Source of the DNA: Zhengella mangrovi
Lineage (GTDB): Bacteria; Pseudomonadota; Alphaproteobacteria; Rhizobiales; Rhizobiaceae
Direction: 5' to 3'
Length of the DNA stretch: 64,000 bases
Assembly: GCF_002727065.1 (NCBI RefSeq)
Contig: NZ_PDVP01000012.1
Span: forward strand, 62,001-126,000
The translations under genes were made by a program, and so were the position numbers. Below the pieces are notes generated by a model. It saw only the letters and a program-made list of their open reading frames with translations. It made no database searches and was not told where the DNA came from. How positions within the stretch are numbered: the first letter of the stretch is position 1; the number at the start of each line of letters is the position of its first letter. Positions 53,445 through 64,000 of this stretch are shown here, piece after piece.

Positions 53445-53622
53445 ACGCCCTTCGGGCATCCTGGTTCCCACGTGACATGCCGGTCCGGCGGACCGCTGCG
53501 AATGGCGCGCGCCGTCATTCCGGCGCTTTGTCCTGCATTCTGAAATGCACGCGTTGCCACGCAAGGTTCGCTGTCCACAGGCGGAGATTCTCCTGTCACG
53601 CCCTTGACAAAATTTGCGCGTC

Positions 53623-53658
53623 ATGAAAAAAATTTCATCAGATGATATTTTTATCATC
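53623..53658 (+). promoter_or_regulatory. Double palindromic operator candidate before the SorC regulator gene
   Basis: Two inverted repeats stand side by side: ATGAAA-AAAA-TTTCAT (53623-53638) and GATGATA-TTTT-TATCATC (53641-53658), the second ending 14 bases before the TTG start codon of the SorC gene. A consensus -35 hexamer TTGACA lies at 53604-53609, just upstream, without an obvious -10. This is the natural place for autoregulation and control of the whole sugar operon. Confidence 0.6.
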
Positions 53659-53672
53659 CGGGAGGAAATCAC

Positions 53673-54644
53673 TTGGCAGTCAACGGCACGACACTTGCGC
53701 CGGATTCTGATGCGTCCATGGCAGCCCGCGCTGCATGGCTGCATTATGCCGGCGGCCTGACGCAGGCCGAGGTCGCGAAGCGGCTGGGTGTTACCTCCAT
53801 GAAGGCGCACCGCCTGATCACGCGTGCCAACCAGGCCGGCCTGGTCAAGGTTTTCATCGACGGCGAAGTCGCAGAATGCGTTGCGCTGGAGGCCGAACTC
53901 AGCAAGCGGTACGGTCTCGACTATTGCGAGGTCGTCCCCGACATCGATGCCGACGACCTGCCGTTGCGCGCGCTCGGTCGGGCAGGGGCCCAGTTCCTGC
54001 GCCGCGAGATGGAGCGCTCCGAGAACCTTCTGATTGGCATCGGCCACGGCCGCACGCTGGCCGCCAGCGTGGAGTTCCTTCCGCGGATGAGCGCCGGCAA
54101 GACACGGTTCGTCTCGCTGCTGGGCGGCCTGACCCGCAAGTTCGCCGCCAATCCGCACGACGTGATCCACCGGCTCGCCGAACGGACCGGCGCCGAGGCC
54201 TATGTCATGCCGGTTCCCTTCTTTGCCAACACGGTCGAGGACCGGGATGTGCTGCTGTCCCAGCGCGGCATTTCCGACGTCATGGACCTGGCGCGCTCCG
54301 CAAGCCTGCTGTTCGTCGGCATCGGTACCGCAGAGCCGGGTGCTTCGCTCGTCGCGACCGGCATGATCGAGCCGGGCGAGATCGCCGAGGTCAGCGCCAG
54401 GGGCGGGACCGGTGAAATCCTCGGCCATTTCTTCGATGCCAGGGGCAATCCGGTCGATACGACCCTGACCGAGCGGACGCTCGCGCTGCGGCTCGACGAG
54501 TTGCGCGACCGGCGGATCATCGCCCTGGCCGGGGGACAGTTGAAGGTCCCCGCAATCAATTCCGTGCTTGAGAGCCGCTTGCTCAGCGGTCTCATTACCG
54601 ACGAACGCACCGCGCGCGCGCTCGTCAAGCTTGAAGCGTCCTGA
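53673..54644 (+). CDS. SorC/DeoR-family sugar-binding transcriptional regulator
   Basis: The 323-residue regulator has an N-terminal HTH (LTQAEVAKRLGVTSMKAHRL, about 28-48) and a C-terminal sugar-phosphate-binding isomerase-like domain (about 70-320, with GIGHGRTLAASVEFL and LFVGIGTAEPGASL). SorC regulators sense phosphorylated sugars or polyols; EryD (erythritol) and LsrR belong here. The start is a TTG with GGGAGGAAA upstream. It heads the operon, 27 bases before the binding-protein gene, and probably controls it through the palindromes just upstream. Confidence 0.92.
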   Translation: MAVNGTTLAPDSDASMAARAAWLHYAGGLTQAEVAKRLGVTSMKAHRLITRANQAGLVKVFIDGEVAECVALEAELSKRYGLDYCEVVPDIDADDLPLRALGRAGAQFLRREMERSENLLIGIGHGRTLAASVEFLPRMSAGKTRFVSLLGGLTRKFAANPHDVIHRLAERTGAEAYVMPVPFFANTVEDRDVLLSQRGISDVMDLARSASLLFVGIGTAEPGASLVATGMIEPGEIAEVSARGGTGEILGHFFDARGNPVDTTLTERTLALRLDELRDRRIIALAGGQLKVPAINSVLESRLLSGLITDERTARALVKLEAS

Positions 54645-54671
54645 TCGGGACACCAACGGGAGGAACCCCAC

Positions 54672-56117
54672 ATGTATGAAAAGGAAAAGCAGATCGTAGA
54701 CGCGTATGTCCGCGGATCGATCAGCCGCCGCGATCTCTTCCGCGGTCTTGGCGCCCTCGGCGTCACGGCTGCGACGGCCGGCGTTCTGGTCAACGCGGCC
54801 GCGACCCGTGCCCTCGCGGCCAACGGATTCGACTGGAAGAAGCACTCCGGCACCACCATCAAGCTGCTTCTGAACAAGCACCCCTACACCGATGCCATGC
54901 TGGCCGACCTTGAGAACTTCAAGGAAATGACGGGCATGGACGTCCAGTACGACGTGTTCCCGGAAGACGTCTACTTCGACAAGGTGACGGCTGCGCTCTC
55001 CTCCGGCTCGACCGAGTACGACGCCTTCATGAGCGGCGCCTACATGACCTGGACCTACGGTCCGGCCGGCTGGATCGAGGATCTGAACCAGTGGATCAAG
55101 GACGACAGCAAGACCAACCCGGACTACAACTGGGGCGACATGCTGCCGGGCGTGGTCAAGTCCTGTGCCTGGAACGGCCAGCCGGGCGGTGAACTGGGCT
55201 CCGACGATGCCAAGCAGTGGTGCATTCCGCTCGCCTACGAGCAGAACAACCTGACCTACAACAAGCGCATCTTCGACGCCAACAACCTCAAGGTTCCGAC
55301 CAACATCGACGAACTGCTCGACACCGCCGCCGCGGCCAAGGCAGTGATGAACGGCGGCTATGGCATCGGCGTGCGCGGCTCGCGCTCCTGGGCGACCATT
55401 CACCCGGGCTTCCTGTCGGGCTATGCCAACTTCGGCCAGAAGGACCTCAACGTCAGCGCGGACGGCAAGCTGTCGGCTGCCATGAATACCGACGTGTCGA
55501 AGGAATATCACCGCAAGTGGGTCAAGATGATCCAGGATTCCGGCGCGCCGGACTGGTCGACCCACACCTGGTACCAGGTCGGCACCGACCTCGGCGCCGG
55601 CAAGTCGGCGATGATGTTCGACGCCGACATCCTCGGCTACTTCATGAACGGCGGCGACAACAAGGAAGCCGGCAACCTGGCCTTCTCCGCCTTTGCCGCC
55701 AACCCGGAAGCCAAGGCGCCGACCCCGAACATCTGGATCTGGGCCATGGCCATGTCGACCTTCTCCCAGAAGAAGGACGCCACCTGGTACTTCCTGCAGT
55801 GGGTCACGGGTCCGGAGCACGACCTGTTCGGCGCCCGCAAGATGGACCTCGTCAACCCGGCGCGGTCCAGCGTCTGGGCCGACGAGATGTTCCGCGACAA
55901 GCTGTCGGCGTCCTACCCGGGCTACGTCGAGATGCACGACGTTTCCGCTCCCGGCGCCTCGATCAAGTTCACGGCTCAGCCGCTGTTCTTCGATCTGACG
56001 ACCGAATGGGCAGCCATGCTGCAGAAGATGGTCGCCAAGGAGGTCCCGGTCGATGAAGGCATCGACCAGCTGGCCGAGAGCGTCAACCGTCAGCTCAAGG
56101 ATGCCGGCCTGGGCTAA
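54672..56117 (+). CDS. Tat-exported carbohydrate ABC transporter substrate-binding protein
   Basis: The 481-residue family 1 solute-binding protein has a twin-arginine signal: SRRDLFRGLGALG at about residues 18-30, followed by a hydrophobic stretch and ATRALAA (cleavage near residue 50). The mature part has the usual two-lobe pattern, LNKHPYTDAMLADLENFKEM at the start and a WAAMLQKMV-type end. Tat export implies folding before secretion. GGGAGGAA precedes the ATG. A strong stem-loop follows, as often found after highly expressed binding-protein genes. The likely ligand is a polyol or sugar. Confidence 0.9.
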   Translation: MYEKEKQIVDAYVRGSISRRDLFRGLGALGVTAATAGVLVNAAATRALAANGFDWKKHSGTTIKLLLNKHPYTDAMLADLENFKEMTGMDVQYDVFPEDVYFDKVTAALSSGSTEYDAFMSGAYMTWTYGPAGWIEDLNQWIKDDSKTNPDYNWGDMLPGVVKSCAWNGQPGGELGSDDAKQWCIPLAYEQNNLTYNKRIFDANNLKVPTNIDELLDTAAAAKAVMNGGYGIGVRGSRSWATIHPGFLSGYANFGQKDLNVSADGKLSAAMNTDVSKEYHRKWVKMIQDSGAPDWSTHTWYQVGTDLGAGKSAMMFDADILGYFMNGGDNKEAGNLAFSAFAANPEAKAPTPNIWIWAMAMSTFSQKKDATWYFLQWVTGPEHDLFGARKMDLVNPARSSVWADEMFRDKLSASYPGYVEMHDVSAPGASIKFTAQPLFFDLTTEWAAMLQKMVAKEVPVDEGIDQLAESVNRQLKDAGLG

Positions 56118-56129
56118 GCCCGCCGGTAT

Positions 56130-56157
56130 CGGGGCGCCCCGCGACAGGGGCGCCCCG
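56130..56157 (+). other. Intercistronic stem-loop after the binding-protein gene
   Basis: CGGGGCGCCCC (56130-56140) pairs perfectly with GGGGCGCCCCG (56147-56157) over a 6-base loop, with no T-run. Placed between the binding protein and the first permease gene (115-base gap), it probably stabilises the upstream mRNA and lowers downstream expression rather than ending transcription. Confidence 0.7.
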
Positions 56158-56232
56158 CATACAACCGAACCCGACCATTGGCGACCGATGTGCCAGCAGT
56201 GTCCCGGATACTGCTGACAGAAGGATTTTGTG

Positions 56233-57156
56233 ATGAGCGACGCCACGATGAACCAGAAGCCGAGACGCGGTTTTCGCGTCAGCCGCGGCGCCTTGCCCTA
56301 CCTGCTGAGCCTGCCGGCGTTGCTGACCTGTATCGGGATCCTGGTCCCGTTCTTCACCGCCGTTGCCTATTCGCTTCAGCGCTATCGCTTGTCGCAACCC
56401 TGGGCCCGAAAGTGGAACTGGGGCGAGAACTATTTGAATTTCCTGTCCGATCCTGCCTTCTGGAACACGCTCAAGGTCTCCCTGACCTATGCGTTCCTGA
56501 CCGTCGGCATCGAGCTTCTGCTAGGGCTCGGCATCGCGCTGCTGCTGCAGAAGCGCACGCGGTTCAACAATTTCGTCTCCATCATGCTGCTGATGCCGCT
56601 GATGACCGCTCCGGCACTGGCGTCGCTGATGTGGAAGCTGATGACCAATCCTGGCTTCGGCATCCTGAGCTATTTCGCCTCGCTGATCGGGCTGCATGAT
56701 TTCCGCTGGGCATCGGATCCGTCCACGGCCATGCTGACGGTGGTTCTGGTCGACATCTGGGTCTACACGCCCTTCATCATGATCCTGCTGCTCGCCGGCC
56801 TGCGCTCTCTGCCGCAGCAGCCCTTCGAGGCCGCCGCGCTGGATGGTGTGCCGCGCCTGTTCGTCTTCTGGCGCATCACTCTGCCGATGCTGACACCCTT
56901 CCTGCTGACGGCCACGCTGTTCCGCGTCATCGAGAGCATCCAGCAGTTCGACATCATCTACGCCATGACCCAGGGCGGCCCGGGCGACAAACTCACCGTC
57001 TTCCAGGTCGAGGCCTACCTGAACTTCTTCCAGTCGACGAATGTGGGGCGCTCCGCGGCACTGCTCATGATCCTTTGGGCGATCACCTACATCCTGTCGA
57101 ACATCTTCATCAAGAACTGGCTGCGCCTGCGTGAACGGCAGCGCGGAGAGGCGTGA
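56233..57156 (+). CDS. Carbohydrate ABC transporter permease 1
   Basis: The 307-residue MalF-type permease has six to seven helices. The EAA loop that contacts the ATPases is QPFEAAALDGVPRLFVFWRI near residue 200. The ATG at 56233 has AAGGA upstream; a GTG directly before it is an alternative. It is the first permease of the CUT1-type importer and is 10 bases from the next gene. Confidence 0.92.
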   Translation: MSDATMNQKPRRGFRVSRGALPYLLSLPALLTCIGILVPFFTAVAYSLQRYRLSQPWARKWNWGENYLNFLSDPAFWNTLKVSLTYAFLTVGIELLLGLGIALLLQKRTRFNNFVSIMLLMPLMTAPALASLMWKLMTNPGFGILSYFASLIGLHDFRWASDPSTAMLTVVLVDIWVYTPFIMILLLAGLRSLPQQPFEAAALDGVPRLFVFWRITLPMLTPFLLTATLFRVIESIQQFDIIYAMTQGGPGDKLTVFQVEAYLNFFQSTNVGRSAALLMILWAITYILSNIFIKNWLRLRERQRGEA

Positions 57157-57166
57157 GGACATAACC

Positions 57167-58024
57167 ATGGAACACACAAGCACCCTGGAAAAGGTCCTGC
57201 GCGGCACCGCCATCACGCTGGTCATCCTGTTCTTCATGTTTCCGATCTTCTGGATCTTCCTGATGAGCTTCCAGACGAACGAGACGATCCTGCGCGTTCC
57301 GCCGTCGATCGTCTTCGATCCGACGCTGTCGAACTACACCGCGCTGATCACCGGCAAGCTCGACACGGCAGCCGGAACGCTGGAAATCAGCTTCATGAAG
57401 AACCTCTGGAACTCGCTGTTCCTCTCCGCGGCTTCCGTCGCGGTCGGCCTGGTCCTCGGTGTGCCGGCGGCCTATGCCTTCGCCCGGCTGAAGTTTCGCG
57501 GCTCCGAGGACATCGCCTTCACGCTCCTGAGCTTCCGCTTCGCGCCGCCGCTGCTGGTCCTGCTGCCGCTGACCATCTACTTCCAGCAGATCGGCCTGGC
57601 CGATACCTACCTCGGCCTGATCTGGGTCTACCAGCTCATCGTCCTGCCGCTGATCCTCTGGATCGTCCGCGGCTACTTCGAGGACATCCCGGCCGATGTC
57701 GAATATGCCTATCGCATCGCCGGCCACAGCTGGGGCGCCACCTTCCGCAAGATCGCCCTGCCGCTGGCCGGGCCCGGCATCGCCGCCGCGGGACTGCTGG
57801 CCTTCATCTTCGCCTGGAACAACTTCGTCTTCGCCCTCGTGCTGGCCTCGGCCGACAAGCAGCCGGTGACCGTCGGTGCGCTCGCCTTCGTCACGGCGTC
57901 GGGCATTCAGTACGGCCAGGTGGCCGCCGGCATCGTCCTGTCGATCCTGCCGACATTCGCCCTGGCCCTCTACGCCCAGCGCTACCTCGTCGAAGGCCTG
58001 TCGCTCGGCGCGGTGAAAGGATAA
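57167..58024 (+). CDS. Carbohydrate ABC transporter permease 2
   Basis: The 285-residue MalG-type permease has six helices. The EAA loop reads DVEYAYRIAGHSWGATFRKI, with the family Glu-Ala positions partly changed (EYAYRIAG). GAFVTASG-like AFVTASGIQYGQVAAG is near the C-terminus. The start at 57167 has GAGGA upstream; the longer in-frame start lies within the previous gene. It pairs with permease 1. Confidence 0.92.
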   Translation: MEHTSTLEKVLRGTAITLVILFFMFPIFWIFLMSFQTNETILRVPPSIVFDPTLSNYTALITGKLDTAAGTLEISFMKNLWNSLFLSAASVAVGLVLGVPAAYAFARLKFRGSEDIAFTLLSFRFAPPLLVLLPLTIYFQQIGLADTYLGLIWVYQLIVLPLILWIVRGYFEDIPADVEYAYRIAGHSWGATFRKIALPLAGPGIAAAGLLAFIFAWNNFVFALVLASADKQPVTVGALAFVTASGIQYGQVAAGIVLSILPTFALALYAQRYLVEGLSLGAVKG

Positions 58025-58028
58025 CCCC

Positions 58029-59141
58029 ATGTCGCTTCAACTCACCGACATCGTCAAATCCTTCAAGGAGGACCTGGTGCTGGACGGCGTCTCGCTCGAC
58101 GTTGCCACCGGCGAGACCCTCGTCCTCTTCGGCCCCTCGGGCGCAGGCAAGACGGTCCTGCTTCGCCTCATCGCCGGCGTCATCGAACCGGACGAGGGCA
58201 GCATCCGCATCAACGGCGCCGACATGGACGGCGTCGAGCCGGAGGATCGCGGTATCGGCATGGCGTTCCAGAACTTCGCGCTGTTTCCGCACATGGATGC
58301 CCGCGAGAACATCGCCAGCCCGCTGATCGCGCGCCGCGAGAGCAAGACCGGCATCAAGCGCCGCGTCGAGGACGTCGCCAGGCTGCTCAAGATCGATCAT
58401 GTGCTGCATCACAAGCCAAAGGAACTCTCCAACGGCCAGAAGCAGCGCACCGCCTTGGGACGGGCACTGGCGGGTGAGCCGTCCATCCTTCTGCTGGACG
58501 ATCCGCTGCGCAACGTGGATGCCAAGCTGCGCTTCGAGATGCGGCTGGAGCTGCCGCGCCTCCTGAAGGACCAGCAGGCCACCGTCATCTACGTGACGCA
58601 GGACTACAAGGAAGCCATGGCGCTCGGCGACCGGATCGCCGTCATGAGCGGCCATGGCATCGCGCAGATCGGCACGCCGGAAGACATCTACCTGTCGCCG
58701 GCCAACACCGAGATCGCGCGCCTGTTCGGCGATCCCGTCATCAACCTGCTGGAGGTCACGCCGGAACGCGGCGAGGCCGGCGTGCAGGTCAAGCTTTCGG
58801 GAACGGCCGTGCCGATCAATCCCGGCTACACAGGGTCGATCGGTCATTCCTGTATCCTGGGCATCCGCCCCGAGGGCATTCACTTCGCCGATGCCGGCAC
58901 GCCGGGTGCGTTCCCGGTCACGATCGAGGCGGAAACGCCGCTTAACGAGAAGACTGTCACCCTCGCGGCGACCGAGAACAAGCGCGAAATCCTGATTTCG
59001 CGGCCGAGTGGCACATCCGCGCCCGACAGCGGACAGGCCCATATCGTCATCGACAGCGGCGCGGTCATCCTGTTCGACAGGGCAACCGGAAACCGCATTG
59101 CACTGCCGGCAACCGATGCCGCGAAGGGAGGGGCAGCATGA
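58029..59141 (+). CDS. ABC transporter ATP-binding protein 1 (degenerate catalytic site)
   Basis: The 370-residue MalK/UgpC-type ATPase has a C-terminal OB-like (TOBE) regulatory domain (about 240-370). Walker A is intact (GPSGAGKTVLLRL) and the Q-loop Gln is present (AFQNFALFPHM). Three other elements deviate: signature LSNGQKQR, Walker B LLLDDPLRNVD (Asp in place of the catalytic Glu) and switch region VTQDYKEA (Gln in place of His). It may therefore bind but not efficiently hydrolyse ATP. It forms a heterodimer with the next protein, as in the GlpS/GlpT pair of the rhizobial glycerol importer. Confidence 0.9.
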   Translation: MSLQLTDIVKSFKEDLVLDGVSLDVATGETLVLFGPSGAGKTVLLRLIAGVIEPDEGSIRINGADMDGVEPEDRGIGMAFQNFALFPHMDARENIASPLIARRESKTGIKRRVEDVARLLKIDHVLHHKPKELSNGQKQRTALGRALAGEPSILLLDDPLRNVDAKLRFEMRLELPRLLKDQQATVIYVTQDYKEAMALGDRIAVMSGHGIAQIGTPEDIYLSPANTEIARLFGDPVINLLEVTPERGEAGVQVKLSGTAVPINPGYTGSIGHSCILGIRPEGIHFADAGTPGAFPVTIEAETPLNEKTVTLAATENKREILISRPSGTSAPDSGQAHIVIDSGAVILFDRATGNRIALPATDAAKGGAA

Positions 59142-60262
59142 GCGAGACCATGCTCCGGCTGGAAAATGTCGACAAGTTCTACGGACCGATCGGCAAGGGG
59201 GTCCACGCCGTCCGGAACATCAACATGGACGTCGCCAAGGGCGACATCATCGCGCTGCTCGGGTCCTCGGGCTGCGGCAAGACATCGACGCTGCGCATGA
59301 TCGCCGGTTTCGAGGAAACCAGCCGCGGCAAGATCTTTCTATCCGGGCGCGAGGTGCACCGGCTTCCCCCGGTCAAGCGGCACGTCGCCATGGCCTTCGA
59401 GGGCTATTCGCTGTACCCGACGGTCAACGTGCGCGACAACATCGCCTTCGCCCTGAAGGCGGCGAAGCTGCCGGAGGCCGAGGTCGCCTCCCGCGTCCGC
59501 GACGTCGCCGAGATGCTGGAGATCTCCGACATCCTCGACCGGATGCCGAACTCGATCTCGGGCGGCCAGCAGCAGCGCGCGTCGCTTGCCCGCGCCCTGA
59601 TCCGCGATGCCGACCTGCATCTTCTCGACGAGCCGATGGGCCAGCTCGAGCCGCAACTGCGAACGCTTCTGCGCGGCCGCATCAAGCACTTCATCAAGCA
59701 GCGCGGTCTCACCGCCATCCTGGTCACCCACGACCAGACCGAGGCCAACGCCCTGGCCGACCGCATCGCGGTCATGGAAGGTGGCGTGCTGCAGCAATAC
59801 GGCAGCCCGGCCGAGATCAAGGAGCGTCCGGCCAATCTCTTCACCGGGACCTTCGTCGGGGAACCGCCGATGAACGTCTTCCCCGTCACCGCCTCCACCG
59901 TCGGCGACAAGCTGCATTTCGACCTGGAAGGCGGCCTCGACCTGGCCTATGCCTCCAATGCCTTCGCACCCGACGTCCGCGAAGCCATCCTCAAGCGTGG
60001 CCGCGTCATGGTCGGCGTGCGGCCCTATGCCGTCCGCCGGTCCGAGCACGGCCCTGCAGCGCGGGTCCTGACGAACCAGTGGCTCGGCGACCAGAGCCAC
60101 ATCGCGGCAGCCTTCGCCAACGGCAACCTCGTGCTCGTTGAACATGACCGCGCCAGGGTCGGGATCGGCGAGGAAATCCGCGTCGAGCTGGACCCGGCCG
60201 ACCTCCACGTCTTCGACCTGGAGAGCGGCAAGGCGATCAGCCACGGACAGGAACTGGCGTGA
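59138..60262 (+). CDS. ABC transporter ATP-binding protein 2 (catalytic site mostly intact)
   Basis: The 374-residue UgpC/MalK-type ATPase has Walker A GSSGCGKTSTLRM, signature ISGGQQQR, Walker B LHLLDEPMGQLE with the catalytic Glu, and switch His in VTHDQTEA. The Q-loop position is Glu in place of Gln (AFEGYSLYPTVN). A TOBE-type domain occupies residues 240-370. It overlaps the first ATPase gene by 4 bases (ATGA) and the kinase gene by one base (TGATG). With protein 1 it would form one competent and one impaired ATP site. Confidence 0.91.
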   Translation: MSETMLRLENVDKFYGPIGKGVHAVRNINMDVAKGDIIALLGSSGCGKTSTLRMIAGFEETSRGKIFLSGREVHRLPPVKRHVAMAFEGYSLYPTVNVRDNIAFALKAAKLPEAEVASRVRDVAEMLEISDILDRMPNSISGGQQQRASLARALIRDADLHLLDEPMGQLEPQLRTLLRGRIKHFIKQRGLTAILVTHDQTEANALADRIAVMEGGVLQQYGSPAEIKERPANLFTGTFVGEPPMNVFPVTASTVGDKLHFDLEGGLDLAYASNAFAPDVREAILKRGRVMVGVRPYAVRRSEHGPAARVLTNQWLGDQSHIAAAFANGNLVLVEHDRARVGIGEEIRVELDPADLHVFDLESGKAISHGQELA

Positions 60263-61821
60263 TGACCGGCGGCGGCGATCTCATCATCGGTATCGATGCG
60301 GGAACCTCCGTCATCAAGTCGATTGCGTTCGACCTGTCCGGCCGGCAGATCGCGGTGGCCTCGACGCCGAACCGCTACACCGTCCTGCCTGATGGCGCCG
60401 CATTCCAGCCCCTGGCCGACACCTGGGAAGACTGTGCCCGGACGCTGCGGGAACTGGGCGAACTGGTCCCCGGCCTCGCGAACCGCACCGTCGGCATTGC
60501 CGTGACGGCGCAGGGGGATGGTACCTGGCTCGTCGGCCCCGGCAACGAACCGGTTGCCGACGGCTGGCTCTGGCTCGATGCCCGCGCGGCGCCGGTCGTC
60601 CGGCGCCTGCGCCAGTCCGCCGCCGATATCGACCGTTTCGCCCATACCGGCAGCGGGCTCAACGCCTGCCAGATGGGAACCCAGCTCGTCCGCATGAAGG
60701 AGATCATGCCCGAGGCCGTTGCCACGGCCGAGGTGGCGCTGCACTGCAAGGACTGGCTCTATCTGAATTTCACGGGTGTTCGCGCCTGCGATCCGTCGGA
60801 AGCCAATTTCACCTTTGGCGATTTTCGCACGCGGGCCTACGACGACAGCGTCATCGACGCGCTCGGCCTGACGTCGGAGCGCCGCCTGTTGCCCGAGATC
60901 GTCGACGGGTCGCAGGTCACGCATCCGCTGAGTGATGCGGCCGCGGCCGCGACGGGCCTGAAGGCCGGAACGCCGGTCTCGCTCGGCTATGTCGACGTTG
61001 CCTGCACGGCGCTTGGCGGCGGCATCTATACTGCCGGCTCCGAAGCCGGCTGCACCATCATCGGCTCGACCGGCATGCACATGCGCGCGACCACGCCGGA
61101 AAACGTCTTCCTCAACGAGGAGCGGACCGGCTACGTCATGTGCCTCCCGATTCCCGGCGTCGTGGCGCAGATCCAGTCCAACATGGCCGCGACCCTGAAC
61201 ATCGACTGGCTGCTGAAGGTCGCCTCCGACCTGATGGCCGACATGGGCAAGCCGGTGAATCATCGCGACCTTATCGCCCACATCGACACCTGGATCGCCG
61301 CGGCGCAGCCGGGCAGGGGGGTCTACCACCCCTATATCTCCGAGGCCGGCGAGCGCGGTCCCTTCGTCGACAACGCGGCGCGGGCGAGCTTCATCGGCCT
61401 GTCGTCCTCGCATCGTTTTCCGGACCTTGTCCGCGCCGTCATCGAGGGCCTCGGCCTTGCCGCACGCGATTGCTACGGCGCCATGGGCGACATGCCGTCC
61501 GAGGTGCGCCTGACCGGCGGCGCGGCGCGGTCGAAGGCGCTGCGCTCCATCTTTTCCGCCTCCATCGATGCCCCGGTTCGCACCTCCGCACGCGAGGAGG
61601 CAGGCGCCGCCGGCGCGGCCATGATGGCGGCCGTTGCCAACGGCGTCTACGACACGATGGACGCCTGCATCGCCGAATGGGTGACGCCGCTGCTGGGCGA
61701 AGCCGAAGCGCCGGATGCCGGCCTGGCCGCCGTCTATGCCCGTACCTATCCCGCCTATCGTGCCGCCCGCGAGGCACTGGTGCCCGTCTGGGCGCAGCTT
61801 TCCGAGACAGGAGACAATTGA
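60262..61821 (+). CDS. FGGY-family carbohydrate kinase, EryA (erythritol kinase)-like
   Basis: The 519-residue two-domain kinase of the FGGY fold has the N-terminal phosphate loop IIGIDAGTSVIKSIAFD, the segment WLWLDARAAP, and in the C-terminal domain GCTIIGSTGMH and RLTGGAARSKALRSIFSAS (ATP site). From memory the sequence most resembles erythritol kinase (EryA) of Brucella and rhizobia, but no eryB or eryC follows, so the substrate may be another polyol, ketose or sugar acid. The ATG at 60262 shares its A with the preceding TGA; a GTG one codon earlier is an alternative. Confidence 0.9.
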   Translation: MTGGGDLIIGIDAGTSVIKSIAFDLSGRQIAVASTPNRYTVLPDGAAFQPLADTWEDCARTLRELGELVPGLANRTVGIAVTAQGDGTWLVGPGNEPVADGWLWLDARAAPVVRRLRQSAADIDRFAHTGSGLNACQMGTQLVRMKEIMPEAVATAEVALHCKDWLYLNFTGVRACDPSEANFTFGDFRTRAYDDSVIDALGLTSERRLLPEIVDGSQVTHPLSDAAAAATGLKAGTPVSLGYVDVACTALGGGIYTAGSEAGCTIIGSTGMHMRATTPENVFLNEERTGYVMCLPIPGVVAQIQSNMAATLNIDWLLKVASDLMADMGKPVNHRDLIAHIDTWIAAAQPGRGVYHPYISEAGERGPFVDNAARASFIGLSSSHRFPDLVRAVIEGLGLAARDCYGAMGDMPSEVRLTGGAARSKALRSIFSASIDAPVRTSAREEAGAAGAAMMAAVANGVYDTMDACIAEWVTPLLGEAEAPDAGLAAVYARTYPAYRAAREALVPVWAQLSETGDN

Positions 61822-61822
61822 G

Positions 61823-62863
61823 ATGTCCAGATCCGTCGCCATCATCGGCGATCATTTCATGCTGCCGGAAGTGTTCGAGGAAAAGATCGTCGCGGCCTGC
61901 GGTGACAAGGTGTCGATCCGCACCCGCAAGGACAATTGGCCCGACGAACCCATGGAACACGGCTACGCCGTCGAAGGCATGGACGGGCTGAAGGAATATT
62001 TCGGCACCGCCGACGACGTGGTGGACTTCGTCGGCGACGCCGAGATCCTCGTCACCCAGTTGGCCCCGCTCTCGGCCGGCATGATGGACCGCCTTCCGAA
62101 CCTGAAGCTCGTGGCGGTATCGCGCGGCGGACCGGTGAACATCGACATGACCGCTGCCCGCGAACGCGGCATCACGGTGGTCAACACGCCCGGGCGAAAC
62201 GCCACCGCTGTCGCGGAGTTCACCATCGGCGCCATTCTTGCCGAGACCCGCAAGATCCGCGAAGGCCACGAAGCCCTTCGGAAGGGTATCTGGCGCGGCG
62301 ATCTCTATCGCGCAGATGTGACCGGCCGCGAACTGAACGAACTGACCGTCGGCGTCATCGGCTACGGCAACATCGGCACCAAGGTGGTCAAGCTGCTGCG
62401 GGCCTTCGGCACCAGGGTGCTGGTCTGCGACCCCTATGTCCAGCTGTCGCAGGAGGATCGCCTCGCCGGTGTCGAGCATGTCGCGCTGGACGAGATCCTG
62501 CAGCGCTCCGACGTCGTCAGCATGCATCCGCGCGTGACCGATGAAACGCGCAAGATGATCAACGCCGACACGCTCAGGGCCATGCGTCCCGGCACGATCT
62601 TCGTCAACACCGCGCGCGGCCCGCTGGTCGACTACGACGCGCTCTACGATGCGCTGGAGTCCGGCCATCTCGCCGGTGCCATGCTGGAAACCTTCTCCGT
62701 CGAACCGGTGCCGGAAGACTGGCCGCTGCTGCAATTGCCGAACGTGACGCTCACTCCGCATATTGCCGGCGCGTCGGTGCGCACGGTCACCTTTGCCGCC
62801 GAGCAGGCGGCCGAGGAGGTACGCCGCTACATCGCCGGCGAAGGCCCCCGCAACCAGTGCTGA
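61823..62863 (+). CDS. D-isomer-specific 2-hydroxyacid dehydrogenase
   Basis: The 346-residue NAD(P)-dependent enzyme has the dinucleotide loop VGVIGYGNIGTKVVKLL. The catalytic Arg is in VSRGGPVNIDM, the Glu lies between FVNTARGPLVDYDAL and METFSVEP-like LETFSVEPVPED, and the His is in TPHIAGASVRT. It interconverts D-2-hydroxyacids and 2-oxoacids (glyoxylate/hydroxypyruvate reductase, phosphoglycerate or phosphoerythronate dehydrogenase are relatives). One base separates it from the kinase gene, so it acts in the same pathway. AGGAG precedes the ATG. Confidence 0.92.
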   Translation: MSRSVAIIGDHFMLPEVFEEKIVAACGDKVSIRTRKDNWPDEPMEHGYAVEGMDGLKEYFGTADDVVDFVGDAEILVTQLAPLSAGMMDRLPNLKLVAVSRGGPVNIDMTAARERGITVVNTPGRNATAVAEFTIGAILAETRKIREGHEALRKGIWRGDLYRADVTGRELNELTVGVIGYGNIGTKVVKLLRAFGTRVLVCDPYVQLSQEDRLAGVEHVALDEILQRSDVVSMHPRVTDETRKMINADTLRAMRPGTIFVNTARGPLVDYDALYDALESGHLAGAMLETFSVEPVPEDWPLLQLPNVTLTPHIAGASVRTVTFAAEQAAEEVRRYIAGEGPRNQC

Positions 62864-62924
62864 CCAAGGATCGTCCCTTGACCCATCGCCCGCAAGAGGC
62901 CGGCATCGAAACCAGGATAGGACG

Positions 62925-63986
62925 ATGACACAGATCGCCAACGACCCCGAATTCCAGGCCCTGCGCACGGTATCGGCAAGGGCCGGCGCCGATCCGCTGC
63001 TCGTTCAGGCGGCGGGCGGCAACACCTCGATCAAGCGTGATGGCATCCTCTGGATCAAGGCGTCCGGCACCTGGCTGATGAACGCGGACAAGGACGACAT
63101 TTTCGTTCCCGTCGATCTCGGCCAGTTGAACAAGGCGGTGCGCCGCGATGACGGCTCGGCCGAAAAGGCCCAGGATTTCGTGGTCGCCGACCGGAACCCG
63201 TCCGGCCTGCGCCCCTCCATCGAGACGACCGTTCATTCGGCCCTGCCGCAGGACGTGGTGATCCATGTCCATTGCGTCGGCACCATCGCCCATGCAGTGC
63301 GGGCGGATGCCGGGGCTGTGCTGGCCGAAAAGCTTGCCGGTCTCGACTGGGCCTTCGTTCCCTACGTCAAGCCGGGCCTCACCCTTTCCCATTCGATCGA
63401 GGCGGTCCTGAAGCCGGAAACCCGCGTGCTTGTCCTCGGCAATCACGGCCTGGTCGTCTGCGGCGATACGGTGGCAGAAACCGAAGCGTTGATGGACGAT
63501 GTCCATGCACGCCTGACCGGCACGCCTCGCGCAACGGCAAGCGCGGACATCGAGGCGCTGAAACGGCTGGCGCAGGGCACCGGCTACGATCTGCCCGCCG
63601 ACCCGGCAAGCCATGGCGCGGCGCTCGATGCGGCAAGCGCTGCGATGGCCGGGCAGGGCAGTCTCTATCCCGACCACGTGATCTTCCTCGGCGTCGGCTC
63701 CGTGCTGGCCGGCGAGGGGGAGACAGCCGCGGATGTCGCCGCCCGCTTTGAAGCGGCCGGCCTGCCAGCACCCGTGTCGATCCTGTTTCCGGGCAAGGGT
63801 GTGCTGATGAACGGCTCGGCGAATGCCGGTGCCCAGGCGCTGGCCCGCTGCCTCGCCGACGTGACGACGCGGATCCCGGCAGGAACGGCATTGAACTACC
63901 TGACCGAAGCGCAGAATGCCGAGCTTCTGGATTGGGACGCGGAAAAATACCGCCAGGCGCTGAACAACAAGGGAGCAGGGGCGTGA
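62925..63986 (+). CDS. Class II aldolase (RhaD/COG3347-type aldolase half)
   Basis: The 353-residue zinc aldolase resembles the aldolase part of bifunctional rhamnulose-1-phosphate aldolase/dehydrogenase (COG3347), with QAAGGNTSIKRDGILWIKAS near the N-terminus. The zinc and catalytic residues are Glu100, His114-Val-His116 and His174 (GNHGLVV). The C-terminal tail (about 230-353, ending NYLTEAQNAELLDWDAEKY) resembles the linker before the dehydrogenase half in fused enzymes, but the dehydrogenase is absent and another gene starts right at the stop. It would split a sugar phosphate to dihydroxyacetone phosphate and an aldehyde, or decarboxylate a 2-oxo-tetronate phosphate. Confidence 0.88.
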   Translation: MTQIANDPEFQALRTVSARAGADPLLVQAAGGNTSIKRDGILWIKASGTWLMNADKDDIFVPVDLGQLNKAVRRDDGSAEKAQDFVVADRNPSGLRPSIETTVHSALPQDVVIHVHCVGTIAHAVRADAGAVLAEKLAGLDWAFVPYVKPGLTLSHSIEAVLKPETRVLVLGNHGLVVCGDTVAETEALMDDVHARLTGTPRATASADIEALKRLAQGTGYDLPADPASHGAALDAASAAMAGQGSLYPDHVIFLGVGSVLAGEGETAADVAARFEAAGLPAPVSILFPGKGVLMNGSANAGAQALARCLADVTTRIPAGTALNYLTEAQNAELLDWDAEKYRQALNNKGAGA

Positions 63987-64000
63987 GCACAGCCGCGCCT
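63983..64000 (+). CDS. Start of next operon gene (truncated by window end)
   Basis: A GTG at 63983 overlaps the aldolase stop as GTGA and has a strong ribosome site (GGGAG at 63971-63975). Only VSTAAP is visible, so no product can be named. If the operon follows the fused COG3347 enzymes, a short-chain dehydrogenase would be expected here. Confidence 0.5.

Follow-up and report, generated by a model that had tools for sequence, protein, structure and literature searches.

What does an operon under a SorC-family regulator, found in Zhengella mangrovi, enable this bacterium to use, and does it belong to a pathway that is already known? The operon lies at the end of the window analysed here, a stretch of 64,000 nucleotides (nt) covering positions 62,001 to 126,000 of contig NZ_PDVP01000012.1 (C3) in a genome of 5.07 Mb (G000). 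The initial annotation had described a tight operon with a SorC regulator, a five-protein ATP-binding cassette importer, an EryA-like FGGY kinase, a D-2-hydroxyacid dehydrogenase and a class II aldolase, and had concluded that it fits no standard pathway. We found all of these components on the + strand, as nine genes in order between 53604 and 64000, with short or overlapping joints according to the coordinates of the open reading frames. On the strength of sequence comparison, we are highly confident that they form an operon for the import and catabolism of erythritol, adonitol (ribitol) and L-arabitol, controlled by EryD and linked to a second locus on C75. This confidence applies to what the locus is and to its connection with C75, and not to the single enzyme steps.

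Identity of the operon

Geddes and Oresnik reportedly studied the erythritol, adonitol and L-arabitol locus of Sinorhizobium meliloti in 2012. As a reference for this locus we used that of S. meliloti strain Ak57 (CP090106.1, locus L114), which was reached by a protein search of annotated plasmid records. It begins with a SorC regulator, a binding protein, two permeases, two ATPases, an FGGY kinase and a 2-hydroxyacid dehydrogenase, and continues with a short class II aldolase, a GlpD-like enzyme, a class II aldolase of 351 amino acids (aa), an FGGY kinase, a HAD protein, a sugar-phosphate isomerase, a DeoR regulator, a triose-phosphate isomerase and RpiB. The binding protein, the second permease and the HAD protein carried no annotation and were located by BLAST. 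The resulting 17 genes equal the count given by Geddes et al. The record itself, 3.72 Mb long and titled pSymB of Ak57, contains the ery/mpt locus, which strain Rm1021 has on its chromosome, and the size of the record suggests a mislabelled chromosome.

The Z. mangrovi operon is collinear with S. meliloti gene by gene from eryD through mptABCDE, eryA, rbtA, lalA and rbtB to rbtC, at 48-90% identity, with EryD and MptABCDE in the same order at 66-90%. The identities of MptA, EryD, EryA, RbtA, LalA, RbtB and RbtC all exceed the homology cut-offs of Geddes et al. (PMC3599248), and the family assignments of the nine window genes were upheld by Pfam and NCBIfam profiles (Table 1). The 2-hydroxyacid dehydrogenase was equated with RbtA, and the longer of the two S. 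meliloti aldolases with LalA, by elimination over the 17 genes. The short aldolase is fucA1, which is said to be absent in S. fredii, and Ensifer loci without fucA1 still have LalA. S. meliloti genetics has shown that use of all three polyols involves mptABCDE and eryA, and that lalA-rbtABC serve only the two pentitols, adonitol and L-arabitol (PMC3599248); the Mpt polyol transporter has been treated again in a later study (PMC10433430). The initial annotation was thus right in calling the kinase EryA-like and the regulator SorC-type. Since the three enzymes that it named have orthologues (EryA, RbtA and LalA) assigned jointly to this characterised locus, its conclusion that the operon fits no standard pathway was wrong.

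The extent given to the operon was correct at one end. Position 53604 coincides exactly with the start of the promoter's -35 hexamer, TTGACA, but the aldolase gene is not the last one, as rbtB, whose start overlaps the lalA stop codon, and then rbtC follow beyond the window. The alignment of RbtC with its S. meliloti counterpart (48% identity; cut-off 40%) covers 54% of the length, owing to a short reading frame in Ak57. EryA is single in the genome, where the next-best FGGY protein is 28-29% identical.

Predicted EryD operators and the second ery locus

The hexamers of the eryD promoter match the consensus at 10 of 12 positions, with 0.0 such promoters expected in shuffled sequences. Behind the -35 box lie two copies of a palindrome of the form ATGAWA-N4-TWTCAT, to which EryD would bind. 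The TTGACA hexamer and its 19-nt spacing to the operator are conserved in the eryD promoters of S. meliloti and of a sister genome (G297), and the S. meliloti locus has three operator-like elements (at 2323, 2342 and 2361 of L114) that likewise repeat every 19 bp, the second and third of which depart from the consensus by 2 mismatches. The strict pattern TGAWAWWWWTWTCA occurs twice in the window, against 0.01 expected, and only four times in the whole genome: twice at eryD, once upstream of an eryB homologue on C75 and once on C9, inside a glycosyltransferase-like reading frame of an unrelated gene. The reversed control pattern gave 0 matches in the whole 5.07-Mb genome. In the sister genome, the strict pattern was found only at eryD (twice) and at eryB (once), and the control pattern matched once. 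No match within two mismatches was found upstream of eryR on C75 or upstream of the Gemmobacter eryD. Because the operator stands at both eryD and eryB and is nearly unique in the genome, the window operon and the C75 locus probably constitute one EryD regulon. The arrangement resembles the EryD operator of Ochrobactrum, which occupies 29 bp between -35 and -10 and has AT-rich GAAAA elements with a spacing of about 20 bp (PMC10190533); the AT-rich repeats at the Z. mangrovi eryD are 19 bp apart. Furthermore, DeoR of Bacillus subtilis, a member of the same family as EryD, binds TTGAACAAAATTCAA (PMC11229326), which is close to the eryB site TTGAAAAAAATTTCAA.

The C75 locus accounts for the genes that the initial annotation had reported missing. 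EryB and EryC are indeed absent from the window operon, but not from the organism: eryB starts at C75:24339 (70% identity to S. meliloti EryB; published cut-off 65%), and EryC (69%; cut-off 68%) and TpiB (74%; cut-off 69%) are encoded a few kb past it. The gene order is eryB, eryC, an iron-dependent alcohol dehydrogenase gene, fsa on the opposite strand, eryR, tpiB and rpiB, with no kinase gene. The alcohol dehydrogenase, similar to lactaldehyde reductase and 4-hydroxybutyrate dehydrogenase, and fsa (fructose-6-phosphate aldolase/transaldolase) lie within the ery locus at L125:12331-14194 and are kept in the sister genome (L139).

The same two-locus split was found in the sister genome (L004), and RbtA is kept at 92% in the only other genome of the genus compared. 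Among 62 homologous rbtA-bearing loci from public genomes, eryB lies within the same locus in 58, the exceptions being L004, L012, L019 and L057; its absence from the operon is therefore a variant arrangement. L012 and L057 are accompanied by a second full locus of the eryDABC type, which supplies EryB. A C-terminal eryB remnant persists between fucA1 and lalA at L057:9575-9967, indicating that eryB was lost from the operon there, and no recognisable eryB remnant was found in the 61-bp gap between rbtA and lalA in the window. EryB was ubiquitous in the data set of Geddes et al., and the text of that 2013 survey (PMC3599248) does not describe the split arrangement.

Table 1. Features of the Z. 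mangrovi operon and of its predicted regulatory sites. Positions refer to the window unless a contig is named; identities are to S. meliloti proteins, with published cut-offs in brackets.
Feature	Position	Strand	Description
eryD promoter, sigma-70 type	53604..53633	+	TTGACA 53604-53609, 18 nt, AAAAAT 53628-53633; overlaps operator 1
Predicted EryD operator 1	53623..53638	+	ATGAAAAAAATTTCAT; palindrome, also in sister and S. meliloti eryD promoters and upstream of C75 eryB
Predicted EryD operator 2	53642..53657	+	ATGATATTTTTATCAT; 19 bp after operator 1
eryD, SorC-family regulator	53673..54644	+	323 aa, TTG start; PF04198, E=1.3e-71; 72% to EryD
mptA, polyol-binding protein	54672..56117	+	PF01547; 73% to MptA (56%)
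mptB, permease	56230..57156	+	PF00528; 82% to MptB
mptC, permease	57131..58024 (likely ATG start 57167)	+	PF00528; 90% to MptC over aligned 60% of length
mptD, ATPase	58029..59141	+	PF00005; 66% to MptD
mptE, ATPase	59138..60262	+	PF00005; 69% to MptE
eryA, FGGY polyol kinase	60262..61821	+	58% over 98% to EryA (46%)
rbtA, D-2-hydroxyacid dehydrogenase family	61823..62863	+	PF02826, E=6.6e-58; 77% to orthologue (50%)
lalA, class II (zinc) aldolase with C-terminal domain	62925..63986	+	353 aa; PF00596; 58% to LalA (49%)
rbtB, second FGGY kinase	63983..64000, on to C3:127269	+	only the start in the window; 60% to RbtB (51%)
rbtC, HAD-IIA hydrolase	C3:127266-128123 (L002:17266-18123)		beyond the window; TIGR01459, 257.6 bits (profile cut-off 103.75)
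Predicted operator shared with eryB	C75:24137-24150		TTGAAAAAAATTTCAA; palindrome as at eryD, also in sister genome

Proposed route and competing explanations

For transport, and for which genes each polyol requires, we followed the published genetics; we infer the steps of EryB on C5 compounds and those of LalA, RbtA, RbtB and RbtC. MptABCDE would import erythritol, adonitol and L-arabitol, and EryA would phosphorylate them. EryB, a GlpD-type flavoprotein, would then oxidise the carbon beside the phosphate, as is established for GlpD-type enzymes, giving a product like a ketose-1-phosphate. The C4 product would be converted to erythrose-4-phosphate by EryC, TpiB and RpiB, possibly because cleavage of a C4 compound would release formaldehyde. 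For the C5 products, LalA is expected to cleave the pentulose-1-phosphate to dihydroxyacetone phosphate (DHAP) and glycolaldehyde, which fits the published restriction of lalA-rbtABC to pentitols; the corresponding reaction of ribulose-1-phosphate aldolase is established (PMC9700705). Dephosphorylation by RbtC and re-phosphorylation by RbtB may divert ribulose to ribulose-5-phosphate, and RbtA probably acts on a downstream 2-hydroxy or 2-keto acid. Binding of EryD to the tandem palindromes over the promoter, and to the same operator at eryB, would tie the two loci together. We put forward tentatively this pentitol route by kinase, oxidase and aldolase, with a phosphate swap for ribulose, distributed in this lineage over two operons at unlinked sites that share one EryD operator.

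Several features of the proteins bear on this route. Residue 245 of EryA, a conserved aspartate, is the presumed catalytic base. The NAD-binding GxGxxG motif and the catalytic Arg, Glu and His of RbtA are intact, and none of the curated NCBIfam substrate models reached its own cut-off with this protein. In LalA, the catalytic Glu and three zinc-binding His (E100, H114, H116 and H174) are invariant in 22 homologues and the profiles matched are of the RhaD/FucA type; the best Protein Data Bank (PDB) folds for its AlphaFold model (pLDDT, the model confidence score, 89.8) are 3m4r and fuculose-1-phosphate aldolases (FucA), in the N-terminal part. RbtB is closely related in sequence to SePSK/AtXK-1, with E=3.5e-97 across some 418 residues, and SePSK has D-ribulose kinase activity (PMC4880283). 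Motif I of RbtC, VDQFGVLHDG, keeps the HAD nucleophile and has F at the second position (D-x-F), a residue that is W in 6nq4, its PDB relative. HAD phosphatases usually have D-x-D in this motif.

Some of these observations weigh against the assignment proposed above. A plain phosphatase role for RbtC is not assured, given D-x-F in place of D-x-D; the label RbtA for the 2-hydroxyacid dehydrogenase depends on the elimination over 17 genes; and the proposed route yields no 2-hydroxyacid on which RbtA could act.

In a quick tree of 114 LalA sequences, the deep order of which is unresolved, the window protein and that of the sister genome fall inside a group mostly from operon-type loci. Mesorhizobium, Aminobacter and Shinella also have lalA-rbtB-rbtC as a module that stands by itself; loci with such a module are L064-L083, L115, L117 and L118. 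In the annotated L115, L117 and L118, this module adjoins a DeoR regulator, a kinase and a ribose-type importer, and L115 also has rhamnose genes. The module is further present in a bin of Prosthecobacter (Verrucomicrobiota; CAMBPB010000050.1, L056), where it branches with the Sinorhizobium/Rhizobium group, which suggests transfer or mis-binning.

The initial annotation had offered a route confined to the enzymes it saw in the operon, in which the FGGY kinase phosphorylates a ketose or polyol, the aldolase produces DHAP and glycolaldehyde, and the dehydrogenase handles glycolate or glyoxylate. The cleavage step of this scheme agrees with the enzyme families and the pentitol genetics: LalA has the residues and fold of a class II aldolase, the kinase is EryA, and ribulose-1-phosphate aldolase chemistry exists. 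However, an aldolase cannot cleave a phosphorylated polyol without prior oxidation by EryB, which is encoded on C75 here and within the operon in 58 of the 62 homologous loci, and the scheme also leaves out RbtB and RbtC. Its chemistry is better than that of the tetronate scheme discussed below, but it needs EryB, and in its operon-only form we regard it as unlikely.

Alternatively, the operon could have become independent of EryB in this lineage, serving another substrate or using another oxidoreductase, such as a GlpD paralogue at C33 or C11, instead of the C75 partner. In favour of this explanation, eryB is missing from the operon here as in L004, L012, L019 and L057, and two further EryB/GlpD-like genes are present in the genome, at C11 and C33, with 46-76% identity by segment to S. 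meliloti EryB. We rejected both as the true eryB, since they reach 49-50% over the full length compared to 70% for the C75 gene. Against it, the C75 eryB is preceded by the operator found at eryD, as it is in the sister genome; its locus lacks a kinase gene, and the genome has just one EryA; and a second locus fills the gap in L012 and L057. We therefore consider EryB independence slightly less likely still.

Least probable by far is a tetronate or pentonate route, where the PdxB-like dehydrogenase would oxidise a phosphorylated acid and the aldolase-fold enzyme would then decarboxylate it. RbtA and PdxB do share a family (RbtA scores 128.8 bits on the NCBIfam PdxB profile, the cut-off of which is 434), and the aldolase fold is common to OtnC-type decarboxylases, but the orthologues of the transporter and of the kinase are polyol proteins, the aldolase is of the RhaD/FucA type, both operon kinases are FGGY proteins with no OtnK/DUF1537 protein or LtnD in the operon, and the model of the 3-oxo-tetronate-4-phosphate decarboxylase OtnC gave no match to the window aldolase at E up to 0.001 and only E=0.0009 with its S. 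meliloti orthologue. On profiles and gene context we rejected LalA as a tetronate decarboxylase.

Relation to known polyol loci

The Z. mangrovi operon shares with the S. meliloti locus (eryD-mptABCDE-eryA-rbtA-fucA1-eryB-lalA-rbtBC-eryC-eryR-tpiB-rpiB) the gene order from eryD to rbtC and the layout of promoter and operator; it differs in lacking fucA1 and in having eryB, eryC, eryR, tpiB and rpiB on C75, beside the alcohol dehydrogenase gene and fsa. Homologues of EryA, EryB, EryC, EryD, EryR, TpiB and RpiB connect the genome to the eryABCD-eryEFG locus of Rhizobium leguminosarum and Brucella, which has EryEFG, whereas MptABCDE and the pentitol genes lalA-rbtABC are found in Z. mangrovi. Most of the content of the polyol loci of the Bradyrhizobium/Acidiphilium type (mpt, eryABD and lalA-rbtABC, without eryC) is matched by the window operon with rbtB and rbtC, but eryB is missing from the Z. 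mangrovi operon and eryC-tpiB are located elsewhere in its genome. The non-carboxylating pentose bisphosphate pathway of halophilic archaea, with its ribulose bisphosphate phosphatase, ribulose-1-phosphate aldolase and glycolaldehyde reductase, likewise combines a HAD phosphatase and a FucA-type aldolase to yield DHAP and glycolaldehyde; it is entered from nucleosides, and the likeness, one of logic, is at most partial.

These results remove a claimed orphan pathway and place the operon in a genetically defined rhizobial polyol system. The locus was already known genetically from S. meliloti, the alfalfa symbiont, and the split arrangement is what differs in Z. mangrovi. To this system our analysis adds a predicted EryD operator, whose genome-wide matches are almost only ery sites, a probable two-locus regulon, and a chemical reason why LalA may serve in pentitol use and EryC, TpiB and RpiB in erythritol use.

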